64,000 bases of DNA from Desulfovibrionaceae bacterium (GTDB lineage Bacteria; Desulfobacterota; Desulfovibrionia; Desulfovibrionales; Desulfovibrionaceae), in the NCBI GenBank assembly GCA_016932995.1, contig JAFGBU010000017.1, forward strand, positions 1 to 64,000, given 5' to 3'. Of the stretch, positions 1,169 to 60,427 are shown piece by piece (positions within the stretch are counted from its first letter, which is position 1; each line of letters opens with the position of its first letter). The position numbers and the translations under genes were made by a program. The notes beneath the pieces were generated by a model. It was not told the origin of the DNA. It made no database searches and worked only from the letters and a program-made list of their open reading frames with translations.

Positions 1169-1382
1169 GTTTTTTTCCCCTTGCCCCTGCTTGCGGGGTG
1201 TTCGAGCATCCGTCAACAGGGGTTCGGAGTCAAGGCGCGCACGGGCCCGGCCGGGCCCGCCTTGACATTCGCGCCCGGACCGGCAATTGTTATCTAGTTG
1301 TAATAAGGCCTGATTCGGCCCGGGACCCGGGTCTCGTCCGGGTCCGGGCGCCTTGATCTCCGCTGCCCGGGGAGGGCGGGGC
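1169..1382. other. Divergent intergenic region
   Basis: 214 bases between the Memo gene (minus) and the RsbW-like gene (plus). TTGACA at 1262 and AT-rich ttatctagttgtaataa at 1290-1306 suggest promoters, but no correctly spaced pair is seen. Confidence 0.5.
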
Positions 1383-1823
1383 ATGGCTCAATCGGTTGAG
1401 TGGCGGCTGGAGCCCGAGGTCCGGCTGGCCCGGGTGCTCACGGCCGGGGTCCAGGCGGTCATGGAGTTGAACGGGGCCGAGCGGGCGGACTGCGACCGTC
1501 TGCAGCTGGCCGTGGAGGGGGTGTTCATCTACATCTGCCAGGTCCTGCGCGAGGCCCGGGTCAGCGACGCCGTGTGCGCCGGCATGGAGATGTTCGGCAA
1601 CCAGGCCAGGGTCTGGCTGGAGCACATGGGCCCCAAGGGCGACCTGGACCACTTTTTTGAGCCCGACTCAATGGACAGGATCAAGCGCACCAGCTTCGAG
1701 GCCCTGGGCCTGTTTCTGTCCCGGGAGATGTCCGATTCCCTGGTCTGCGAGCGCCGCTACGACTACCACAAGGGCAAGAAGGTCAGCCGGTTCACGATCT
1801 CAAAGCGGTTCGCCCGTGCCTAG
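1383..1823 (+). CDS. RsbW-like ATP-binding (anti-sigma/HATPase-like) protein
   Basis: This is a 146-residue protein starting at an ATG 5-10 bases after a ggggagggcgggg ribosome site; an earlier in-frame ATG at 1353 lacks one. The layout resembles single-domain serine-kinase/anti-sigma ATPases. It has an N-terminal helix with RLQLAVEGVFIYICQ where such proteins carry the E-x-x-x-N box, a central strand with WLEHMGPKGDLDHFF, and GLFLSREMSDSL near the C-terminus where the family has its G-L-G-L-x-L-x-R loop, ending in a charged strand (FTISKRF). The N-box Asn and the G1 motif are not clear, so ATP binding may be lost. It stands alone between the Memo gene and the ATPase operon; a partner anti-anti-sigma factor is not seen. 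A tentative fold-level call. Confidence 0.55.
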   Translation: MAQSVEWRLEPEVRLARVLTAGVQAVMELNGAERADCDRLQLAVEGVFIYICQVLREARVSDAVCAGMEMFGNQARVWLEHMGPKGDLDHFFEPDSMDRIKRTSFEALGLFLSREMSDSLVCERRYDYHKGKKVSRFTISKRFARA

Positions 1824-1839
1824 GCCCTGCGGACTTTTT

Positions 1840-2022
1840 TCAGACTCCGCGCCTGCGGTCTTTGCCGTCCCTGCGGTCCGGGGCCTTCCTACGGCCGGCG
1901 CAGGCCCTTTCGGATTTCCTGCGATCAAGGCCGGAGCGCCTGTCCTGGCCGCTTCTGCGCTCGAGCCCGGAGCGCCTGTCCTGGGCAAGGTTCGATTTTT
2001 TTTCCACGGCGGCATCCTCCAT
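1840..2022 (-). CDS. Small Arg-rich repeat protein (DRRSG/ERRSG repeats)
   Basis: This 60-residue ORF is mostly repeats of the pattern [D/E/Q]RRSG-x-[D/E]RR: QDRRSGLERRSG, QDRRSGLDRR, then APDRRDGKDRR near the end. The underlying DNA repeats are visible on the plus strand as two copies of ggagcgcctgtcctgg between 1930 and 1990. I chose the ATG at 2022 because the repeat-bearing part begins soon after it; an upstream in-frame ATG at 2070 would add 16 residues, and neither has a strong ribosome site. It is convergent with the preceding gene, 16 bases from its stop. Short RRxG-x-DRR repeat proteins are known from deltaproteobacteria without an assigned role. A highly basic, repeat-built peptide suggests nucleic acid or membrane binding, but that is inference. 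Confidence 0.5.
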   Translation of the reverse strand: MEDAAVEKKSNLAQDRRSGLERRSGQDRRSGLDRRKSERACAGRRKAPDRRDGKDRRRGV

Positions 2023-2044
2023 TTTGTTAGTTAGCTTTTTTTGA

Positions 2045-3933
<1,889 letters not shown>

Positions 3934-4543: not shown

Positions 4544-5217
4544 GCCCGGACTGGACCGTGTACGCCCAGTGGGGGGCCTTCAGGCTGAACGCGACCATAG
4601 TCAACACCTGGCTGGTCATGGCCCTGTTGGTCTTCTTGTCCTGGCTGGCCACGCGCAGGCTGAGCTCGGAGGTCCCGGCCTCCGGGTGGCAGAACGCCCT
4701 GGAGGCGGTCGTGTCCCTGGTCTCCGGGGAGATCCGCCAGGTCACCGGCCGCGAGCCCTGGCCGTTTGTGCCCTTTTTGTGCACCATCTTCCTGTTCGTG
4801 GCCGCGTCCAACCTGCTCTCGGTGGTGCCCTGGTTCAGGCCGCCCACCGGGTCCCTGTCCACGACCGCGGCCCTGGCCCTGTGCGTTTTCGGGGCCGTGC
4901 CCGTCTGGGGGGTCTCGCGCATCGGGTTTCGGCCCTACGTGATGAACTACTTCCGGCCCTCGCCCTTGATGCTGCCGTTCAACGTCATGGGCGAGTTCAG
5001 CCGGACCCTGGCCCTGGCCGTGCGGCTGTTCGGAAACGTCATGAGCGGGAACATGATCGCGGCCATACTGCTCTTGATAGCGCCCCTGGTCTTCCCGGTG
5101 CTTTTGCAGCTTCTGGGGCTTCTGACCGGGCTGGTGCAGGCCTATATCTTCTTCATCCTGGCCGCGGTCTACGCGGCCTCGGGCATGGAGGTCCAGGAGA
5201 ACTCCCTCAACCGCTAA
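4534..5217 (+). CDS. atpB: N-type ATPase Fo subunit a
   Basis: 227 residues from a GTG at 4534, which has gggagg 8 bases upstream and reads VDISPDWTVYAQWG; an open frame further upstream is only read-through of atpR in another frame. About five to six hydrophobic helices. The helix with SRTLALAVRLFGNVMSGNM carries the essential stator Arg (AVRLFGN) that faces the c ring, and the last helix contains VQAYIFFILAAVYA. The protein forms half-channels for the coupling ion. The seven residues before the stop (QENSLNR) end the gene 16 bases before atpE. Confidence 0.93.
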   Translation: MDISPDWTVYAQWGAFRLNATIVNTWLVMALLVFLSWLATRRLSSEVPASGWQNALEAVVSLVSGEIRQVTGREPWPFVPFLCTIFLFVAASNLLSVVPWFRPPTGSLSTTAALALCVFGAVPVWGVSRIGFRPYVMNYFRPSPLMLPFNVMGEFSRTLALAVRLFGNVMSGNMIAAILLLIAPLVFPVLLQLLGLLTGLVQAYIFFILAAVYAASGMEVQENSLNR

Positions 5218-46631: not shown

Positions 46632-46753
46632 TTTTGGCGACTCGCGCATCGGACAAGTGTCTGCTATGTCATTTGCCGGCCCCTGTCCACTGCAAATCCG
46701 CCCGGCCCGGGGCCTCTTGTGCAAAGGCCGGGGCCAATGTAGTATCGCGGGCC

Positions 46754-49177
46754 ATGAGAGAGCACGAAGACGTCCCGGCCGCGGAGGCCTCGGATCTGAC
46801 CAGGCAGGACCTGATAGATTTCGAGCACACCCTGAAGGACGCGCTGCTGGGCCATGTCCGGTTCTCCTCCTACAGCCTTTTCTTTCCCAAGTCATCGGCC
46901 GGGCCGGACCAGGCCCCGCTTGAGGCCCGCTTTGATCCGGACACCGGCGAGCTGACCCTGCCCCTGGTCCTTTCCGGGAGGCATCTGGCGACCTTTCTGG
47001 CCCGGGGCGCCAGGCTCAAGGCCCCCAGGACGCTCCCCAGATACCTCCAGGCCCTGGCCGCGGCCAGCCTGGAGAAGCTCTGCCTGGCCAAGAAGTGCGT
47101 CACCGACCGGCTGACCGGGCTGCGCACCGGCGAGTCCTTCATCCGCCGCCTGGGCCGGGAGATAGGCGGGGTCCAGGACGCCCTGGCCGCGGGGCAGGGC
47201 CGCAGCGTGGACGCGGAGCTGCCGAGCTTCAACGGCCAGTTCGGGCTGATCCTCATGGACCTGGATCGCTTTCAGAGCATCAACGAGAACTACGGCTACC
47301 TGGTGGGCGACGACATTTTGTCCGAGGTCGGCCGGCTCATAGGCCTGGTCTGCCCCAGGCATGTGTGCGCGGCCAGGCTCGGCAACGACAACTTCGCGGT
47401 CCTGGTCCCGGAGGCCAAGCCCCGGGCCTGCTTCCAGCTGGCCGAGGTCATCCGCGAGGGCGTGGCCAAGCTCAGCTTCGAGGACGAGGTGAGCGGGGAC
47501 AGGATCAGGATCACGGCCAGCCTGGGCTACGTCAACTACCCCCAGGGCCTGTCCGGCCCCCAGCACGGCCGCGAGGCCCGGGAGCAGGCCAGGATGCTCC
47601 TGCGCAAGGCCAAGAAGGCCGTGGCCACGGCCAAGGACCTGGGCCGCAACCTGGTCTTCGCCTATGCGGACATCCTGGCCAAGGGCGGCAAGCTCTTGGA
47701 GGTCCTGCCCATGCAGCGGCTGTGCGTGGGCCTGGGCCGGTCCGTGGGCGCGCAGGAGGGCCAGCGCTACCTGGTCTGGTCCCCCAAGTACCAGCGGGCG
47801 GCCGAGGCGCGCATCACCGAGGACGAGCGCCTGGTGGGCCGCTATCCGACCATGTACAAGGGCGAGATCGTGCTCATCGACGTCCAGGAGGAGATGTCCT
47901 TTGCCGAGCTCTTGAACGAGGCCGATCCGGCCTGGCCCGTGGAGTCCGGCGACCGGCTGACCATGGTCCCGGACCGCGAGGCCTTCCTCGCGGCCGAGGC
48001 CGGACAGGCCCCGGCCGCGAGCCGGGACATGATCACCGGGCTTTACGGCTACCGGGACTTCATCTCCATGTGGTCCGCGCAGCGCCAGGGCCCGGAGCGC
48101 TTCAGCCTGATCCTGTTCCGGCTCCTGGAGCACCCCCGGGAGCGGGCCGGCAACTTCGACCGCTACATGGACGCCCAGGCCCGGCAGGTGGCCGGGCTGG
48201 CCGCCGAGGTCCTGGGGCCAGGGGCAGTGGGCGGCCGCTTCGGCCTGAACGGGCTGATCTATTACCTGCCCGAGCGCGACCCCGAGGAGGTCGGCCGCTT
48301 CACCCGGGAGATCGTCGAGCGCTCGGGCCGGGACCTCAGGATCGGCCTGGCCGCGGGCGCGGCCTCCTACCCCTGCCTGACCTTCGGTCGGGCCGACGTC
48401 CTGGACAACTGCCGCAAGGCCCTGGACCACGCCCTGCTCCTGCCGCCGCCCCAGGCCGCGGCCTTTGACAGCGTGTCCCTGAACATCGCCGCGGACAGGC
48501 GCTACATGGAGGGGGACATCTACGGGGCCCTGGAGGAGTTCAAGCTCGCCCTGCTGGCCGACGCGGACAACGTCCTGGCCCGCAACTCCCTGGGCATATG
48601 CCTGGCCCAACTCGGCCGCCTGGAGCAGGCCCGCCGCCATTTCGAGCAGGTCGTGGAGCTCAGCCCGGACAACGTCATGGCCCTGTACAACCTGGGTTGG
48701 ACCTGCCAGCGCATGGGCGATACGGAACAGGCCAGGCGGGCCTACGAAAGTTGTCTTTCCCGCGACCCGGACCACGTCTTCAGCCTGGTCAGGCTGGGCA
48801 ACCTGGCCGAGAGGGCGGGCGATCCGGACCAGGCCGAGCAACGCTACCTGGAGGCCGCCAGCCTGCCGGGCGGCGAGGCCCTGACCATGCGGCACCTGGC
48901 CCGGCTGGCCGTGGAGGCCGGGGACAAGGAAAAGGCCAGGGAGCACCTGCACTTGGCCCTGAAGGCCAACCACAACGACGCCATGGCCATGCACCTCTTG
49001 GCCCGGCTGTACCTGGACAGCGGCGAGGACCCGCAGATCGCCGAGGTCCTGGCCCGCCAGAGCTCGGCCCTGGCCCCGGACAGGCGCGAGTACTGGGACC
49101 TCCTGGCCCGGGCCCTCAGGGCCCAGGGCAAGGAGGATGAGGCGCTCAGGGCAGAGGCCAGGGCCGTTCCGGCCTAG
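46754..49177 (+). CDS. Degenerate GGDEF plus TPR protein
   Basis: 807 residues. After an N-terminal region (1-120), residues ~130-320 form a GGDEF domain (LTGLRTGESFIRRLGREI, LILMDLDRFQSINENYGYLVGDDIL), but the signature is RLGNDNFAVLV instead of GGDEF, so cyclase activity is doubtful. A second, poorer GGDEF-like domain is at ~440-600 (DMITGLYGYRDFISMW... GGRFGLNGLIYYL). The C-terminus from ~620 has about five TPR units (ALYNLGWTCQRMGDTEQARRAYE). Probably a c-di-GMP or GTP sensing scaffold. Its neighbour is an HD-GYP protein. Start ATG 46754 chosen as the first with continuous sequence; weak ribosome site. Confidence 0.8.
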   Translation: MREHEDVPAAEASDLTRQDLIDFEHTLKDALLGHVRFSSYSLFFPKSSAGPDQAPLEARFDPDTGELTLPLVLSGRHLATFLARGARLKAPRTLPRYLQALAAASLEKLCLAKKCVTDRLTGLRTGESFIRRLGREIGGVQDALAAGQGRSVDAELPSFNGQFGLILMDLDRFQSINENYGYLVGDDILSEVGRLIGLVCPRHVCAARLGNDNFAVLVPEAKPRACFQLAEVIREGVAKLSFEDEVSGDRIRITASLGYVNYPQGLSGPQHGREAREQARMLLRKAKKAVATAKDLGRNLVFAYADILAKGGKLLEVLPMQRLCVGLGRSVGAQEGQRYLVWSPKYQRAAEARITEDERLVGRYPTMYKGEIVLIDVQEEMSFAELLNEADPAWPVESGDRLTMVPDREAFLAAEAGQAPAASRDMITGLYGYRDFISMWSAQRQGPERFSLILFRLLEHPRERAGNFDRYMDAQARQVAGLAAEVLGPGAVGGRFGLNGLIYYLPERDPEEVGRFTREIVERSGRDLRIGLAAGAASYPCLTFGRADVLDNCRKALDHALLLPPPQAAAFDSVSLNIAADRRYMEGDIYGALEEFKLALLADADNVLARNSLGICLAQLGRLEQARRHFEQVVELSPDNVMALYNLGWTCQRMGDTEQARRAYESCLSRDPDHVFSLVRLGNLAERAGDPDQAEQRYLEAASLPGGEALTMRHLARLAVEAGDKEKAREHLHLALKANHNDAMAMHLLARLYLDSGEDPQIAEVLARQSSALAPDRREYWDLLARALRAQGKEDEALRAEARAVPA

Positions 49178-59329: not shown

Positions 59330-60427
59330 CTAGTCCTGGTCGGGCTTGTTCCAGTTCTTGCGCTTGGGCACGATGAGCACCCGCTTCATGGGCCCCTCGC
59401 CCTTGCTGCGGGTGAACACGCTCTCGGAGTTCTGCAGGGCCAGGTGCACGACCCTGCGGTGATACGAGCTCATCGGCCTGGTGCTCTGGGTGCGGTCCTG
59501 GGCCACGCACTTCTCGGCCAGGTCCCTGGCCATCTGCCTGAGCCTCTCGTCCTGGCGCTCCCGGTAGTCCCCGCTGTCGAGCTGGACCCGGATCGAGGCC
59601 TGCATCTTCCTGGTCACCAGGCGGTTGACCAGGTATTGCAGGGCGGCCAGGGTCTGGCCCTCGCGGCCGATGATCAGTCCGGAGTGCTCCTCGTCGTCTA
59701 TGACCACCTTGACCCGGTCCGTGTCCAGGGCGATCTCGACCTTGGGCTCGGCGATGATGGGCCGCAGCAGGTTCTCGGTCACCTCGCGCACGGTCCTGAC
59801 CAGGGCCTCCTTGTCCAGGCCGGCCAGGGTGTCGGCCTGGCCCTCGGACCCGTTCTCTTCGTTCTCCTCGGACAGGTCCAAGGGGGCCTCGACCGGCCTT
59901 TGCGCGGGTCTCGGGGCCCTTTCAGGGGCCTTTTGAGCGGGTCTTTCAGGGGCCTTGTCCCTGGCCTGGCGCTGCTCGGGCTGGCGCTGCTCCCTGGCCT
60001 GGCGCTGCTCGGGCTCGGGCTGGCGCTGCTCGGGCTCGGGCTGGCGCTGCTCGGGCTTCGGGGCCCTTTCAGGGGTCTTTTGAGCGGGCCTTTCAGGGGC
60101 CTTGTCCCGGGCCTGGATCTGTTCGGGCCTGCGCTGCTCCCTGGCCTGGCGCTGTTCGGGCCTGCGCTGCTCCCTGGGCCCCTCAGCGGCCTCCGGGGCG
60201 CTCGGCCCCTTGTCCTGGGCCTGGTCCTCGACCTCGGCCAGGGCCTTGAAGTTGCTCGGCCTGGCCTTGATGGCCGCCTTTTTGACGCCCATCAGGCCGA
60301 AGATGCCCGTGGAGCCGCCGCCCAAGATCTCGATCTCCAGTTTGTCGCGTTTGAGATTGAAGTAGTCGCATGCGGCCTCGATGGCCTCGTCCAGGTTCTT
60401 GCCCTGGAATTCCTTGTATCCGTTCAT
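59330..60427 (-). CDS. jag: Jag/KhpB RNA-binding protein with Gln/Arg repeat linker
   Basis: 365 residues. Jag-N 1-52 (EFQGKNLDEAIEAACDYFNL ... STGIFGLMGVKKA), linker ~60-190 of repeats such as REQRRPEQ and PEPEQRQ with two near-identical long units, KH ~215-285 (LIIGREGQTLAALQYLVNRL), R3H ~290-365 (MSSYHRRVVHLALQ). Binds RNA; genomic partner of yidC, 48 bases upstream. Confidence 0.95.
   Translation of the reverse strand: MNGYKEFQGKNLDEAIEAACDYFNLKRDKLEIEILGGGSTGIFGLMGVKKAAIKARPSNFKALAEVEDQAQDKGPSAPEAAEGPREQRRPEQRQAREQRRPEQIQARDKAPERPAQKTPERAPKPEQRQPEPEQRQPEPEQRQAREQRQPEQRQARDKAPERPAQKAPERAPRPAQRPVEAPLDLSEENEENGSEGQADTLAGLDKEALVRTVREVTENLLRPIIAEPKVEIALDTDRVKVVIDDEEHSGLIIGREGQTLAALQYLVNRLVTRKMQASIRVQLDSGDYRERQDERLRQMARDLAEKCVAQDRTQSTRPMSSYHRRVVHLALQNSESVFTRSKGEGPMKRVLIVPKRKNWNKPDQD
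59885..60180. repeat. Low-complexity repeats inside jag
   Basis: DNA repeats (cctggcgctgctc / ctgctcgggct units and two copies of the ggcctttcaggggccttgtcc region) encode the Glu-Gln-Arg-Pro linker. Confidence 0.85.

Follow-up and report, generated by a model that had tools for sequence, protein, structure and literature searches.

The DRR-repeat ORF and its neighbors

The window analyzed here is a 64-kb stretch, positions 1 to 64,000 of contig JAFGBU010000017.1 from a Desulfovibrionaceae bacterium. Its minus strand, read from 2022 to 1840, translates to MEDAAVEKKSNLAQDRRSGLERRSGQDRRSGLDRRKSERACAGRRKAPDRRDGKDRRRGV* (60 amino acids, stop codon TGA). The features of this region are as follows.

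1353 to 1823, plus strand: convergent neighbor with a match to HATPase_c_2 that stays below the cut-off (E 0.039), a weak sign of a histidine-kinase-type ATPase; an in-frame ATG is at 1383
1840 to 2022, minus strand: DRR-repeat ORF as first noted, by frame translation (ATG at 2022, TGA at 1842 to 1840, 60 amino acids)
1840 to 2007, minus strand: likelier coding sequence, with its putative start at GTG 2007 to 2005 (55 amino acids, MEKKSNLAQDRR...)
2016 to 2020, minus strand: GGAGG in the sequence, putative Shine-Dalgarno of the GTG start
1918 to 1980, minus strand: block 1 in the sequence, four units, DRRSGL ERRSGQ DRRSGL DRR
1879 to 1917, minus strand: KSERACA, then GRRKAP with a further RR pair, as placed by alignment A1
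1852 to 1878, minus strand: block 2 in the sequence, DRRDGK DRR, with a P just before it
2165 to 3568, plus strand: divergent neighbor, beta subunit of an alternate (N-type) F1F0 ATPase (TIGR03305, 793 bits, cut-off 752)

The 60-amino-acid protein has six [DE]RR units and one GRR, contains 16 Arg, and carries a net charge of +10. This bears out an earlier note on this DNA, made from the sequence alone, which had described a protein of about 60 residues built on RRSG-x-DRR. The same note called the protein nearly all repeats, a slight overstatement: 14 residues (9 if GTG is the start) precede the first unit, and the two runs are separated by 13 residues, KSERACAGRRKAP, which contain one extra RR pair. 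No Shine-Dalgarno is evident before ATG 2022, whereas GTG 2007, five codons downstream, has GGAGG 8 nt before it. Because of this, GTG 2007 is the likelier start (MEKKSNL), and the product probably begins there and has 55 residues.

The end of the ORF and the convergent HATPase-like ORF are 16 bp apart, and neither gene flanking the window copy is a c-di-GMP gene. The genome itself has c-di-GMP machinery: its domain matches above the cut-offs include 12 to GGDEF and 4 to PilZ. A separate gene of the window (46634 to 49177, plus strand) encodes a GGDEF-family domain whose signature has degenerated to GNDNF; behind the domain come what read by eye as TPR-like repeats.

We compared the window protein with known families and found no match in Pfam (including PilZ, PF07238) or PHROGs up to E 1, or in NCBIfam up to E 10. 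Eleven relatives gave weak, below-cut-off matches to Pfam and NCBIfam, except for HisKA in the carrier of a kinase-type domain. AlphaFold models were mostly unstructured and of low confidence (mean pLDDT 60.3 and 69.3), and the protein is probably a highly basic, disordered chain of about 55 residues. Such models fit a peptide that a ligand orders and fit any disordered peptide equally, so binding cannot be shown by them. Literature searches with the exact motif and by topic, in a collection with few subscription journals, returned no paper on DRR mini-proteins.

Relatives and distribution

Across the six frames of the window, a run of at least three adjoining [DE]RRxx(x) units occurs in one place, the window ORF, and no such run appeared in 60 simulated windows (fifth-order Markov). 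A search of the genome itself with DRRSGLERRSGQDRRSGLDRR at E<=10 returned no place besides this ORF. In a set of 59 near genomes, which includes the window's own and no other from its genus, we found one true relative, L002, a 48-amino-acid protein whose gene directly follows a ferredoxin-like one. The 297 genomes of the class added L005 (55 amino acids) and L010 (60 amino acids). Homologous frames in relatives, whose lack the earlier note had named as grounds for refutation, thus exist. L002 and L005 come from two genomes of one other genus and are mutually syntenic (loci L065 and L063); in both species, the relative directly precedes an alpha/beta-hydrolase-like gene, and a RelA/SpoT-like gene lies nearby (names by eye).

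The relatives fall beside two further groups of short proteins. Family A consists of stand-alone proteins of about 47 to 56 amino acids with the pattern ERRSGKDRRSGKDRRxFNDPxYxGPERRSGxDRRSGKDRR, and family B has a different core, DNGGRRSGIDRRxFSYxxxIPERRSGxDRRSGxDRR. For comparison, we built profile A1 (seven sequences, window protein included), profile A2 (family A alone, without the window protein), and profile A4 (three window-type proteins). The A1 alignment has 12 invariant Arg columns and six RR pairs aligned throughout, and the window protein shows the DRR mini-protein layout of six RR pairs in two blocks with a linker between them. In hhalign, A4 matched A2 at E 1.1e-9 and family B matched family A at E 4.5e-10; these between-family links partly reflect the repeats common to the families.

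Because repeats inflate profile-profile scores, we used shuffle controls. The window protein scored 56.9 bits against A2, a value reached by 0 of 2,000 shuffles of each of three kinds; the best scores were 26.0 for residue shuffles, 38.6 for RR-keeping shuffles, and 42.0 for shuffles that kept [DE]RR tokens. The kinship of L005 and L010 is slightly less secure, since one of 2,000 token-preserving shuffles reached their score.

The DRR mini-proteins are distributed patchily across the phylum. Of 395 genomes of the phylum, 13 (one of them the window's own) matched the degenerate pattern DRRxGxDRRxGxDRR and 2 matched its backward control; the frames behind the matches belong to family A, to family B, or to arrays on larger proteins, and one, in G647 (L074), looks like a chance frame. 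Profile A1 matched 18 of the 395 at E<=1e-4, five of which (G000, G376, G433, G447, and G660) had supplied A1 rows. In family-level searches, two of eight genomes near G447 matched, namely G447 and G357 (with a protein of the family B type), as did two of eight near G311, both already rows of A2. A one-unit short pattern was a poor detector, found in 84 of 297 class genomes versus 51 (hand count) for its backward control, and many of 30 loci from it were chance frames. One match, L003, was dropped as the other frame of a gene that reads by eye as a guanylate kinase. P0001 at E<=0.05 hit 48 of the 297 class genomes, mostly with weak matches, several of them frames with stops; the loci from three such genomes (L137 to L139) held no DRR ORF.

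Plasmids yielded no relative, nor did viral contigs searched with profile A2. The genome contigs gave at least one among the matches listed, in a Planctomycetota metagenome-assembled genome (L032). There a protein (4830 to 5111) has the C-terminal tail ERRSGQDRRSGADRR, so the motif occurs outside the window's phylum too.

The stand-alone genes had no constant neighbor in 14 neighborhoods with a DRR ORF. Among neighbors chosen for scanning, signaling genes included an HD_5 gene (L129), a GAF protein (L124), and response regulators or sigma-54 activators (L132 and L133). DEAD-box RNA helicase-like genes, named by eye, adjoin short DRR genes in two genomes from different families (L130, 4081 to 5313, and L134, 493 to 1752).

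Repeats and codon choice

The earlier note had read the DNA repeats as growth by duplication with the frame kept. We determined how far the DNA repeats itself once the protein is held constant, by fixing the amino acids and redrawing synonymous codons 5,000 times. At a 36-nt period, 23 of 27 positions were identical against a null mean of 20.05, and 561 of 5,000 draws reached 23. With the protein held constant, a likeness of this size is thus ordinary and does not support duplication. Adjacent 18-nt units were identical at 7 of 15 positions, below the null mean of 10.5 (164 of 5,000 draws were as low), and the RR codons of successive units run AGG CGC, CGC AGA, AGG CGC, CGC AGG. Run with the default threshold, Tandem Repeats Finder did not list the region; it did list tandem repeats within the gene of a Jag/KhpB-like protein (by eye; 59330 to 60427, minus strand), which has a linker of PEQRQ/PEPEQRQ repeats.

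Between genomes, codons differed as well. The window ORF uses different codons at 17 of 26 and 22 of 26 residues identical with two relatives of another genus, and those two differ from each other in coding at 20 of 27. Recent DNA duplication is therefore unsupported, because neighboring units and relatives mostly differ in synonymous codons; these differences argue for a repeat maintained by purifying selection on the protein. The other half of the claim stands: the frame is kept while the number of units varies, from 4+3 RR pairs in the window type to 3+3 in most family A rows and to higher or lower numbers in family B.

These data also bear on whether the ORF is an unexpressed chance frame with a low-complexity repeat in GC-rich intergenic DNA. 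Such a frame would explain why there is no promoter-like site near the ORF and why terminator-like sites are not above shuffle level, and it would fit relatives that are syntenic within one other genus only and an A1 search in which 3 of 247 class genomes matched at E<=1e-3, all three of them rows of A1. It does not account for independent genomes that share the architecture with different codons, for the good ribosome-binding site at GTG 2007, for the hydrolase-like gene that the relatives precede in both L063 and L065, from two species, or for the empty simulated windows. We consider a chance frame very improbable and have high confidence that the window gene and its family are real.

Match of family A to CleD

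Next to sequence relatives, we searched 177,635 distinct sequences of solved structures. The best match of A2 was 6SFT, the CleD peptide, in a structure that shows it with c-di-GMP, at a modest E of 0.002 over only 20 residues, and the next was at 0.53. Profile A1 had a single match at E<=10, the same 36-residue peptide (E 0.012). In the A2 alignment, which reads DRR-x-F-N-xxx-YKGP, DRRRFNSADYKGP of CleD lies over RRkfndpnYkGp of family A. Against the same structures, a reversed A2 profile reached E 1.2 at best, and one column-permuted A2 profile gave no match. Scored against A2, CleD reached 23.2 bits, matched by 0 of 2,000 shuffles in each of three kinds. The CleD fragment itself returned two insignificant matches among plasmids (E 4 and 7).

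The match is a property of family A. Searched against the solved structures, the window protein alone, profile A4, and the family B profile each failed to retrieve 6SFT. Past the DRR, the corresponding stretch of both CleD and the family A proteins contains Y, mostly with GP and partly with F. The motif [YF]xGP[DE][RK]R occurs in 6 of 8 family A proteins, as a single copy rather than in tandem, and in 0 of 3 window-type and 0 of 12 family B proteins. RR-x6-Y, which is present in CleD, is found in 8 of 8, 0 of 3, and 7 of 12, respectively, and RRxF in 4 of 8 of family A; RRxF and YxGP each occur in 0 of 3 of the window type. The window protein keeps the arginines and has no aromatic residue and no YxGP. 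The aromatics are said to belong to the CleD binding mode. For want of RRxF, RR-x6-Y, YxGP, aromatics, and a 6SFT match of its own, we do not class the window protein with the arginine-rich regions (ARRs) of the CleD type; it may work like one.

The CleD peptide is a characterized c-di-GMP binder. As described in excerpts of Nesper 2017 (PMC5677366), the ARR of CleD grafted onto E. coli CheY suffices for c-di-GMP binding (Kd 150 nM by ITC, 2:1), and R156A strongly reduces or abolishes binding by CleD. The same excerpts give the ARR consensus as a tandem [YF]xGP[DE][RK]R and count 302 such proteins, 294 from Alphaproteobacteria, with 5% of ARR matches lacking a known domain. Only one register of 6SFT puts both published positions on Arg; by it, R156 would be the later Arg in the DRR that precedes the linker, R169 would lie in the second block, and the window protein would then have an aligned Arg at both places.

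Like the CleD ARR of Caulobacter, the DRR mini-proteins are short linear peptides with an RR pair, a linker, and a second Arg block, and family A shares its motifs to the extent counted above. The CleD ARR, in contrast, extends a CheY-like receiver C-terminally, whereas the window protein is free-standing. In the DRR mini-proteins, SGx-type residues mostly stand where CleD has its first YxGP, and extra RRSGx units flank the core; the window copy lacks GP as well as aromatics. Their ranges also differ: ARRs are mostly alphaproteobacterial in those excerpts, and DRR relatives lie in the window's own phylum and in one DRR-tailed Planctomycetota protein.

Family A probably binds c-di-GMP. Our preferred reading, possible though at somewhat less than even odds for this copy, is that the window protein is a divergent stand-alone relative of the CleD-type c-di-GMP-binding peptides; for family A this reading is likely. 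More weakly, we infer that this aromatic-free copy might bind c-di-GMP by arginines alone. The earlier note had left the function of such repeat proteins unknown; the family A match sharpens this for the family, although the window copy itself has no CleD match.

DRR arrays on larger proteins

Among eight domain-bearing proteins with DRR arrays, picked by eye, six are signaling proteins (two GGDEF, three HisKA, and one nucleotidyl cyclase), and the other two are an ABC transporter and a TPR protein. The position of the array varies among N-terminal tail, C-terminal tail, and inter-domain linker, and in L053 it is the end of the ABC transporter. The two GGDEF proteins with an N-terminal array (L066, 3437 to 4378, and L067, 3038 to 3952) lie directly downstream of KaiC-like genes, identified by Pfam in L066 and by eye in L067. 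Like the mini-proteins, they carry several [DE]RR units, here in a protein of the c-di-GMP-synthesis family, but the array is fused to a catalytic domain and its units are more loosely spaced. The KaiC-like ATPase gene followed by the DRR-GGDEF gene recurs on the minus strand in two species of one genus (L066, 3437 to 5868; L067, 3038 to 5436), and near this pair lies a DRR protein of about 100 amino acids that ends in MTDxE[IL]RFLL.

A protein with HAMP and guanylate-cyclase domains (L087) carries FEGPDRRSGKDRR and is possibly a c-di-GMP-responsive cyclase. Its gene (1303 to 3033, plus strand) encodes the N-terminal tail DRRAGRDRRSGRDRRVKQVPFEGPDRRSGKDRR before a likely transmembrane stretch (by eye).

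Arrays on such different hosts could also be docking tags, in which a ladder of Arg and Asp pairs with a partner protein or the inner membrane and no nucleotide is the ligand. Tails and linkers of different proteins, among them the tail before the transmembrane stretch of L087 and the transporter end of L053, would suit a tag. Against a tag, the stand-alone forms have no constant partner gene alongside, and the family A match is a characterized nucleotide-binding peptide. We regard docking as quite unlikely.

Discussion

A small, disordered, basic protein with 16 Arg and a net charge of +10 to +12 may be a chaperone for RNA, or for a different polyanion (DNA or polyphosphate, for example), akin in spirit to RGG- or RS-type tails. 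The mostly unstructured, low-confidence model agrees with this, as do the 2 of 14 neighborhoods (L130 and L134) in which the nearest long ORF on one side is, by eye, a DEAD-box helicase, the chief hint of a role with RNA. We nevertheless find this unlikely: nearly every unit has an Asp or Glu before its RR, a feature that binding polyanions in general does not require. The blocks also keep a fixed layout, which points to a specific ligand, and family A matches CleD.

Our main proposal is c-di-GMP binding. The window has a stand-alone gene for a protein of about 55 amino acids, a member of a patchily distributed family of DRR mini-proteins with six shared RR pairs. Family A, the best-preserved branch, would carry a version of the CleD ARR freed from the receiver domain. 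The peptides would fold around a c-di-GMP dimer, with the DRR arginines and the Asp or Glu gripping guanines and phosphates. In this way they would serve as effectors of c-di-GMP or, as a sink, reduce its free level.

Engineered peptides derived from CleD (CSP) are among the nearest known counterparts. They are short c-di-GMP binders, some fusions of which lower the free level, and according to excerpts of PMC11757272 and PMC9062693, both citing Hee 2020, they can lower c-di-GMP signaling in cells. They are engineered, whereas the DRR mini-proteins are natural genes with putative binding. In the excerpts of PMC9062693, CSP4, whether expressed by itself or as a Venus fusion, left P. aeruginosa biofilm unaffected, and an MBP-CSP2 fusion did have an effect; the null result speaks against a simple free-peptide sink.

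Put together, bacteria of this phylum may possess natural, free-standing c-di-GMP sponge peptides of about 50 residues, either descended from the CleD ARR or convergent with it, and the window branch may have evolved an arginine-only form, free of aromatics and with extra repeat units, whose ligand would be c-di-GMP or a related guanine nucleotide, with perhaps more than one bound at once. We advance this full picture tentatively and judge it somewhat unlikely as a whole. If true, an orphan repeat ORF would join c-di-GMP signaling, and cells would own a natural version of the c-di-GMP-sequestering peptides engineered from CleD. Where kinases, cyclases, and diguanylate cyclases carry DRR arrays, the arrays would then mark unrecognized c-di-GMP-responsive proteins across the phylum.
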